NCBI GenBank assembly: GCA_011049175.1
Contig: DSCJ01000038.1
Location: forward strand, 1-64,000
Length of the DNA stretch: 64,000 nt
Source of the DNA: Bacteroidota bacterium
Lineage (GTDB): Bacteria > Bacteroidota > Bacteroidia > Bacteroidales > VadinHA17
Reading direction: 5' to 3'
Each line of letters starts with the position of its first letter. Position 1 is the stretch's first letter. Below are positions 3,573-53,799 of the stretch, one piece after another. The notes beneath the pieces were generated by a model. It saw nothing but the letters and a program-made list of their open reading frames with translations. It did not search any database and was not told where the DNA came from. The position numbers and the translations under genes were made by a program.

Positions 3573-4106
3573 ATGAAGAAAGGTCTGGTTTTTATAGCTG
3601 TATGTCTTTTCATTTTCCCGGAGATCAAGGCGCAGGAATCAACGGGAAAGGTGAAATGGTACACCTTTGAGGAAGCCGTAAAACTGGTTCAGAAGGAACC
3701 AAAAAAACTTTTTATTGATGTATATACTGACTGGTGCGGATGGTGTAAGCGGATGGATGAAAATACATTCAACCATCCGGTGATTGCCGAATACCTCAAT
3801 ACCCATTTCTACGCCGTAAAATTCAATGCCGAATCAACCGAACCGGTGGAGTTCGGAGGGAAGACCTTCATCAACGAAGGAAAAGGGAACCGTCATCCGC
3901 ATCAGCTGGCCATAGCCCTCCTGCAGGGCCGCATGTCATATCCCTCCGTTGCATATATGAACGAGGACCTTCAATTACTGACAGCCGTGGCGGGATACAT
4001 GGAACCCAAAGCCATCGAGCCTATTCTGAGCTATTTTGCCACCGACAAATACAAAACGGTGGAATGGAATGAATTCCAGAAAAATTTTCTGAGCAGTATC
4101 CGGTAA
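3573..4106 (+). CDS. Secreted thioredoxin-like protein (WCGWCK)
   Basis: A 177-aa protein with an N-terminal signal peptide (MKKGLVFIAVCLFIFPEIKAQ, cleavage probably after KA) and a thioredoxin fold. The redox motif WCGWC (C55, C58) is of the DUF255/YyaL-like kind, FIDVYTDWCGWCKRMDENTF. It probably acts in the periplasm as a thiol reductant or oxidase. The substrate is unknown. The ATG at 3573 was chosen because the longer TTG start falls inside the -7 promoter box. The gene stands alone, divergent from the MFS gene and convergent with the DUF4831 gene. No missing residues are seen in the active motif. Confidence 0.85.
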   Translation: MKKGLVFIAVCLFIFPEIKAQESTGKVKWYTFEEAVKLVQKEPKKLFIDVYTDWCGWCKRMDENTFNHPVIAEYLNTHFYAVKFNAESTEPVEFGGKTFINEGKGNRHPHQLAIALLQGRMSYPSVAYMNEDLQLLTAVAGYMEPKAIEPILSYFATDKYKTVEWNEFQKNFLSSIR

Positions 4107-27767: not shown

Positions 27768-27844
27768 TGGTAGCGAGACCGGGAGTTGAACCCGGGACCT
27801 CATGATTATGAATCATGCGCTCTAACCAACTGAGCTATCTCGCC
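27768..27844 (-). tRNA. tRNA-CAU (probably elongator Met; Ile2 not excluded)
   Basis: A full 77-nt cloverleaf on the minus strand. The acceptor stem is GGCGAGA with TCTCGCT (one G-T pair at 1-72), the D-arm reads AGCTCAGTTGGTTAGAGC, the anticodon loop TTCATAA is closed by a CATGA/TCATG stem, and the T-arm is CCGGGTTCAACTCCCGG. The 3' CCA is encoded at 27768-27770. Anticodon CAU allows elongator methionine or lysidine-modified isoleucine; an initiator is unlikely because the G-C rich anticodon stem pairs are absent. The first 19 bases of this gene are repeated twice more upstream (see the array). Confidence 0.93.
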
Positions 27845-27889
27845 ATAAGTATTTTCTCCAACGAAAGAACCTTTTATCATGCGCTCTAA

Positions 27890-27976
27890 TCTCGAAAGTC
27901 TTACCGCCAAAGGCGGTTTAGACTTTCGTGGATCCTCGAAAAACATCGCAAATCAAAGATTTGCTGTTTTTCGGGA
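27890..27976. mobile_element. 87-bp double-hairpin palindromic element, copy 1
   Basis: Removing exactly these 87 bases restores the uninterrupted tRNA D-arm sequence. It folds as two hairpins: 27893-27928 (9-bp outer stem beginning CGAAAGTCT, then a 6-bp inner stem, loop AAA) and 27937-27973 (9-bp outer stem beginning CGAAAAACA, a TC bulge, 7-bp inner stem, loop AAA). No coding capacity and no target-site duplication are seen. It resembles the class of small palindromic insertion elements, but no family match is claimed. Confidence 0.65.
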
Positions 27977-28040
27977 CCAACTGAGCTATCTCGCCATAAG
28001 TATTTTCTCCAACGAAAGAACCTTTTATCATGCGCTCTAA

Positions 28041-28127
28041 TCCCGAAAGTCTTACCGCCAAAGGCGGTTTAGACTTTCGTGGATCCTCGAAAAACATCGC
28101 AAATCAAAGATTTGCTGTTTTTCGGGA
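28041..28127. mobile_element. 87-bp double-hairpin palindromic element, copy 2
   Basis: Identical to copy 1 except for one base, which here makes the ends a perfect 8-bp terminal inverted repeat, TCCCGAAA with TTTCGGGA. It sits at the same D-loop position of the second truncated tRNA copy. The near-identity shows that the whole 151-bp unit was duplicated recently, rather than two independent insertions. Confidence 0.65.
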
Positions 28128-28178
28128 CCAACTGAGCTATCTCGCCAAAAACCTTTCCGTAATTTTTTATACGGGCAG

Positions 28179-28186
28179 CAAAGATA
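28179..28186 (-). promoter_or_regulatory. -7 element upstream of the tRNA array
   Basis: On the minus strand TATCTTTG, an exact TAnnTTTG match, 33 bases upstream of the outermost tRNA fragment (which begins at 28146). A matching -33 was not found. If used, the transcript would run through both truncated copies and the intact tRNA to the terminator, about 440 bases. Confidence 0.45.
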
Positions 28187-28356
28187 ATAATCTTTTTCAA
28201 AAATCACCTCTCTAAAACTGCATTTTGAACCTAATAAACCGTACCGGAAGAGATATCCATCTTATTGTATTACAAGATATTACACCTACTACCTTTGAGG
28301 TTTGCCAATTAAAGTATTTTTCTTATATTGCACAAATACCCAGCACAGGAATAAGA

Positions 28357-53242: not shown

Positions 53243-53285
53243 GTCAGTTGCTTTAAGGTGAATAAAAAACGGGGAATATCCTCTT

Positions 53286-53358
53286 GTCCCTACACCGGCA
53301 TTATCCGGATCAGGTTCAAAGGGTATGATCTCAGCCTGTTATTTAAGGCACCCCCCAT
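53286..53358 (-). promoter_or_regulatory. TPP riboswitch (thi box)
   Basis: On the minus strand the stretch carries the thi-box landmarks in order: GGGTGCC at the 5' side, GGCTGAGA, ACCCTTTGAACCTGATC and GGATAATGCCGG, closing with GTAGGG. These are the pyrimidine- and pyrophosphate-sensing cores of the TPP aptamer. It lies about 45 bases upstream of the TonB receptor ATG and just after a promoter. How it acts (terminator or start-site masking) was not resolved; no intrinsic terminator is obvious in the leader, so translation control is more likely. Confidence 0.93.
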
Positions 53359-53369
53359 TGTTATCGGGT

Positions 53370-53670: not shown

Positions 53671-53714
53671 CTACGTAGTATTCTACGTAGTTATCTACGT
53701 AGTTATCTACGTAG
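53671..53714. repeat. Four CTACGTAG palindrome iterons, 12-bp period
   Basis: CTACGTAG occurs at 53671, 53683, 53695 and 53707, each followed by a four-base AT-only spacer (TATT, TTAT, TTAT and, after the last copy, TTAT). The exact 12-bp period and perfect octamers cannot be chance. The same unit is found twice at 120-139. No gene is overlapped. The role is unknown; a repeated binding site for a dimeric protein or a slippage-amplified minisatellite are both possible. Confidence 0.85.
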
Positions 53715-53799
53715 TTATATATTCTTTGAATCAATCATAATAAACTATACAGATTAACGACATTTACATATCGTAATATTTTTTATAAAGTACGGACAT

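Follow-up and report, generated by a model that had tools for sequence, protein, structure and literature searches.

The array upstream of tRNA-Met(CAU)

The window analysed here is a stretch of 64,000 nucleotides from a metagenome-type assembly of 139 contigs (genome G000), and the copy number of the array described below is as read from that assembly. It contains an intact gene for tRNA-Met with the anticodon CAU, preceded by two truncated copies of the gene's 5' half. The minus strand carries both the array and the tRNA, which places the units 5' of the tRNA, between a putative promoter and the gene:

27768-27844, minus strand: gene for tRNA-Met (anticodon CAU), intact and functional, with the array upstream of it; identified by ARAGORN and by the Rfam tRNA model (74.6 bits)
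27845-27995, minus strand: unit 2, 151 bp, nearest to the tRNA and differing from unit 1 at one base
27845-27875, minus strand: 31-bp spacer of unit 2
27876-27889, minus strand: tRNA nucleotides 20-33 of unit 2
27890-27976, minus strand: 87-bp element of unit 2 (covariance model, 96.2 bits)
27977-27995, minus strand: tRNA nucleotides 1-19 of unit 2, exact copy
27996-28146, minus strand: unit 1, promoter-proximal, 151 bp, a displaced tRNA 5' half with the element, plus spacer
27996-28026, minus strand: 31-bp spacer of unit 1 with GGTTCTTT, putatively leader- or boxA-like
28027-28040, minus strand: tRNA nucleotides 20-33 of unit 1, ending in the anticodon loop
28041-28127, minus strand: 87-bp REPIN-like double-hairpin element of unit 1, TCCCG...CGGGA, in the D-loop (covariance model, 102.4 bits; fold z -10)
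28128-28146, minus strand: tRNA nucleotides 1-19 of unit 1, exact copy
28179-28203, minus strand: putative promoter of the Bacteroidota type, TTTTTG ... TATCTTTG, preceding both units and conserved in a genome of the same genus (G001)

The first 19 bases of the tRNA (GGCGAGATAGCTCAGTTGG) occur at 27826-27844, 27977-27995 and 28128-28146 and at no other site in the window, against a chance expectation of 0.01 matches. The original prediction had them recurring twice, exactly 151 bp apart, with bases 20-33 (TTAGAGCGCATGAT) reappearing beyond an 87-bp insert, and both repeats are found just so. Each unit consists, in order, of tRNA nucleotides 1-19, the insert, nucleotides 20-33 and the spacer; the functional gene is indeed preceded by truncated 5' halves, and in both of them a palindromic element interrupts the D-loop. 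The single-base difference between the units was also read correctly (150 of 151 positions are identical), and Tandem Repeats Finder gives a period of 151 with 2.1 copies and 99% matches at 27825-28147. In G001, the orthologous tRNA-Met locus is contiguous and without the array, with flanks that are 92% and 89% identical, and this empty locus supports a recent tandem expansion, one of the two possibilities named earlier.

The putative promoter was recognized by the known TTTG/TAnnTTTG consensus, and no promoter was seen in the spacer of either unit. The spacers resemble tRNA leaders, and their GTTCTTT motif is also present in three ordinary leaders. There is no ORF in the array, and a GIY-YIG gene is absent from the tRNA-Met locus. 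The junction between tRNA half and element had no match in viral contigs. Only two Rfam families reach threshold in the window, tRNA and a distant TPP riboswitch (53270-53365); near the latter is a 12-bp tandem repeat (CTACGTAGTTAT, four copies, 53671-53718).

A REPIN-like element in displaced tRNA halves

The 87-bp insert is made from two abutting long hairpins (fold z = -10, as DNA) with the plan TCC-CG-stem-CG-A-GGA followed by TCC-T-CG-stem-CG-GGA, or TCCCG...GGATCC...CGGGA overall. In 17 aligned copies, 94% of cells pair and compensatory, two-sided changes are found at 23 of the 37 pairs; shuffled and slid controls came nowhere near this pairing and covariation. Comparison with intact tRNA copies (GTTGG^TTAGAGC, GTTGG^ATAGAGC) shows that insertion was precise and left no target duplication. 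A tRNA-Val locus (L034) provides an internal empty site, since it has two adjacent truncated units, one with the element and one without.

Of 35 further genomes from the family, 24 have the element according to the covariance model, as does 1 of 24 genomes from the order's other families. Few matches came from searching the order for the D-loop junction as a pattern, because the arm sequence varies. In several relatives, the element lies mostly in ordinary intergenic DNA and is thus a general REPIN-like repeat. The original prediction named no known element amplified with tRNA halves in this way. The 151-bp unit as a whole was found nowhere else, but the insert belongs to a dispersed, covarying family and is therefore not peculiar to the tRNA-Met array.

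Rickettsia palindromic elements are also palindromes inserted inside genes, but they are kept in functional genes, whereas within gene sequence the 87-bp element occupies only redundant tRNA copies, and its sequence is unrelated to theirs as far as can be told. It resembles REPINs or BIMEs, in which inverted REPs form pairs that RAYT mobilises (PMC3116915, PMC3733652): two inverted short hairpins form one short, dispersed, non-coding element that enters without target duplication. Unlike these, it prefers the loops of displaced tRNA halves in G000 and has no GTAG/CGTC tag, its feet being TCC/GGA or compensated variants in all 17 aligned copies. G000 also has no match to the Y1 transposase (RAYT) model PF01797, for which 26 of the 36 genomes pass the cut-off. 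The element is consequently not classed as a REPIN proper, and a Y1/RAYT transposase was rejected as its present mover.

When G000 was searched whole with the element model and the tRNA family, and its loci were surveyed in extracted regions, every confident copy of the element was found within a partial tRNA duplicate:

tRNA-Met (C8): two copies of the element
Second CAU tRNA (C100): element in a partial duplicate
tRNA-Val (C89): element in a partial duplicate
tRNA-Ala (C85): element in a partial duplicate, between tRNA-Ile and tRNA-Ala
tRNA-Phe (C63): elements in an upstream D-loop and in a downstream 3' fragment
tRNA-Pro half (near the end of C66): element in the half

Five loci lie within 300 bp of a tRNA, for which chance is about 3e-11. 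Most displaced 5' halves of G000 have no GIY-YIG ORF between the half and the tRNA. The earlier suggestion of a degenerate tandem tRNA was right about the truncated halves, but there is more to the array than that, since five other tRNA loci of G000 and many tRNAs in related genomes have the same arrangement, frequently accompanied by a GIY-YIG ORF. The preference of the palindromes for the loops of displaced halves could possibly reflect redundancy, targeting of single-stranded loops, or a protective effect against tRNA repeats recombining with one another.

The element-bearing tRNA-Ala half (L083, 2140-2515) lies just upstream of an apparent 23S rRNA start and hence inside an rRNA operon. 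At tRNA-Phe (L053), the gene and its terminator are followed by an inverted piece of 22-24 bases of tRNA-Phe, then by the 3' fragment with two elements, one in the T-loop and the other at the joint of T stem and acceptor, and lastly by a second copy of the terminator. Many contigs of G000 have an end no more than a few hundred bases away from a tRNA gene (C16, C21, C27, C29, C32, C44, C63, C83, C86, C89, C100 and C119), so more displaced halves may hide in assembly gaps.

GIY-YIG reading frames at tRNA genes

Small GIY-YIG genes, collected by GIY-YIG similarity and not by position, are strongly associated with tRNA genes. In relatives, 28 of 47 such loci have a tRNA no further than 500 bp away, as do 29 of 34 matches across the class Bacteroidia, where about 1.5% would be expected in either set. 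A displaced tRNA fragment is usually close to the tRNA-adjoining ORFs in Bacteroidia. All five of the scanned proteins from tRNA-linked loci match PF01541 (60-64 bits), and cutting of tRNA DNA is a candidate role for this group. A tree of 60 proteins, built on a short alignment and with few well-supported forks, has 33 changes of tRNA isotype against 45.4 when shuffled, with none of 200 shuffles as low. Lineages associated with Ser, Ala, Val and Pro recur in different families, a pattern that would be expected of site-specific homing.

In G000, the tRNA-Pro half with its element on C66 precedes the first part of a GIY-YIG ORF (MRFFVYILEAIESKKYYIGQTCNLEQRV...), at which the contig breaks off, and C83 starts with the apparent end of a GIY-YIG ORF directly before an intact tRNA-Pro(GGG). 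The two contigs would make up a single tRNA-Pro locus with a GIY-YIG ORF, joined across the contig break. The whole layout is found on one contig each in G013, G017 and G008, where a tRNA-Pro half with the element in its D-loop is followed by a GIY-YIG ORF that runs into the intact tRNA-Pro (...RGVAQPG). Two genomes from a single genus differ at tRNA-Pro, with an occupied locus in G017 and an empty one in G031. At tRNA-Ser of G011, the tRNA is preceded by three tandem units, each consisting of a displaced half, a D-loop palindrome and a GIY-YIG ORF; this is an ORF-bearing likeness of the array in the window.

The mirror layout, in which an intact tRNA is followed by the ORF and a displaced 3' half, is common and occurs at Ala, Lys, Asn, Arg, Gly, Val, Ser and other tRNAs; at L127, the element is in the T-loop of such a 3' half. 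Displaced 5' halves mostly end in the anticodon arm, and displaced 3' halves start in the D, anticodon or T arm. No site-specific recombinase or integrase was found at the loci read, where the inserts are 31 bp (in the window) or one GIY-YIG ORF (elsewhere).

Several loci depart from the common plan. L194 (G025, C23, 1400-1850), where a tRNA-Pro half with the element and a GIY-YIG ORF are followed by a tRNA-Pro with a large internal deletion, is a decayed version of the layout. L096 (G037, C3, 831-2572) has a tandem array of tRNA-like copies at intervals of about 100 bp, for several of which ARAGORN could not assign the anticodon, and two GIY-YIG ORFs of identical sequence, with a partial tRNA copy after each. 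At L035 (about 3625-3900), a small TCCCG..CGGGA hairpin replaces the anticodon arm of a displaced half, which is followed by a tRNA copy entirely without anticodon arm. A displaced tRNA-Val 3' copy (L125; G017, C25, 1141-1250) contains three different TCCGCC..GGCGGA palindromes.

Origin of the array and related systems

From what was observed, that is, the anatomy, the element family, the empty locus in G001, the ORF-bearing loci, the GIY-YIG/tRNA association and the isotype clustering, we infer a DNA cut, homing, and an origin of the ORF-less array from these. We consider it reasonably probable that the array represents two displaced 5' halves of tRNA-Met(CAU) that arose by a cut in the anticodon arm followed by repair, the likely cutter being a nuclease of the GIY-YIG homing type. 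Such a nuclease would cut the intact tRNA gene in the anticodon arm, and repair would duplicate the leader and 5' half upstream while the intact tRNA is retained. The full form of the insertion would be a displaced tRNA half, a GIY-YIG ORF and a whole tRNA, or its mirror image; in the window, the ORF may have been lost, or may never have been inserted if the nuclease acted in trans. The REPIN-like element would then have entered the D-loop of the displaced half, where a palindrome is tolerated since the half is redundant, again without target duplication, and a recent single tandem duplication of 151 bp would be the last step. Because an intact target is rebuilt, cutting could recur and give tandem arrays.

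There is a little better than an even chance that the same applies generally, and that Bacteroidia tRNA genes are hosts to isotype-specific GIY-YIG elements that carry or rebuild a tRNA half, with the array in the window as a nuclease-less descendant. The carried or rebuilt half would make insertion harmless, restore the target so that it can be cut again, and leave the displaced half as a docking place for palindromes.

The array may also have formed without any nuclease, by ordinary tandem duplication of leader and 5' half through slippage or microhomology, followed by palindrome invasion and a second duplication. This is the main alternative, though we are inclined to doubt it. The units in the window have no ORF, L034 includes a truncated unit without the element, and the leader-like spacers (at L120, leader and spacer are alike) mean that slippage alone could have produced the array. 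The GTTCTTT of the spacer might instead be left over from the beginning of a GIY-YIG ORF (ATGAGGTTCTTTGTTTAC at C66), but the leader reading was preferred, given the similar motifs in ordinary leaders and the likeness at L120. However, slippage alone predicts neither the recurrence of anticodon-arm breakpoints at many different tRNAs nor the presence of GIY-YIG ORFs at loci of the same layout.

That the displaced halves are kept as functional RNA, either as a structured leader regulating the tRNA or as a source of tRNA-half-like RNAs or decoys, appears very improbable, and nothing observed suggests that fragments resembling tRNA halves are made from them. The units fold strongly and, lying between the putative promoter and the tRNA, are probably transcribed together with it, but G001 does without halves at the orthologous locus, they are missing from many other tRNA loci, and it is sometimes the 5' and sometimes the 3' half that is displaced. 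An assembly artefact concealing a real locus with one unit or none is more improbable still. The fragmentation of the genome and its many contig ends near tRNAs would allow it, but there is a one-base difference between the two units, synteny with G001 holds on both flanks, and independent assemblies have the same anatomy at other tRNAs.

Several known systems resemble the array and the loci like it. In tRNA-targeted genomic islands, tyrosine integrases leave behind a duplicated part of the tRNA while an intact gene is kept. The Bacteroidia loci likewise have a duplicated tRNA part and a retained intact gene, but their inserts are about 30-300 bp and hold at most a small GIY-YIG ORF, and either the 5' or the 3' half can be displaced. 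Fungal mitochondrial genomes with many homing endonucleases contain truncated extra gene copies, which have been explained by duplication (PMC4162613). There, too, a truncated duplicate lies beside an intact gene, but these are protein genes in an organelle and have no tie to tRNAs.

Homing nucleases, REPIN-like repeats and islands at tRNAs are each known in kind, but no description of their chromosomal, isotype-clustered combination at many tRNAs was found in the open literature searched. Searches for GIY-YIG with tRNA genes and for REP/RAYT in Bacteroidetes or Flavobacteria, and for tRNA fragments with homing endonucleases, returned nothing matching in that literature (subscription papers were outside the scope), and no prior description was found of essential tRNA genes as widespread bacterial chromosomal homing sites outside introns and islands. 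If correct, the proposal would explain why Bacteroidia have truncated copies of tRNAs and small ORFs that extend into tRNA genes, offer a natural collection of miniature tRNA-specific nucleases, and reveal how an essential RNA gene can be invaded by a selfish gene while the host survives.

The closest parallel is SegB, a free-standing GIY-YIG homing endonuclease of T-even phages that is encoded among tRNA genes, cuts within them and promotes inheritance of the tRNA region (PMC2988022, PMC13096335). In phage T6, SegB is required for the tandem amplification of tRNA-Tyr and segB, which has been ascribed to a microhomology that the 5' end of the tRNA shares with the 3' end of segB (PMC13096335). 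The Bacteroidia loci similarly have a GIY-YIG gene at tRNA genes and sequence common to the tRNA 5' end and the ORF 3' end. Unlike the larger, phage-borne SegB, however, their ORFs are chromosomal, isotype-clustered and only 75-100 aa long, with cutting as a presumed activity, and the loci include displaced tRNA halves with palindromic elements in them. They would be a chromosomal counterpart of the SegB-made tandem tRNA arrays in T6, which would make the step from cutting to array directly testable. By our own reading, the reported SegB motif RAWTSGAAC appears to fit the reverse complement of a common tRNA T-loop sequence (GTTCGAATC).
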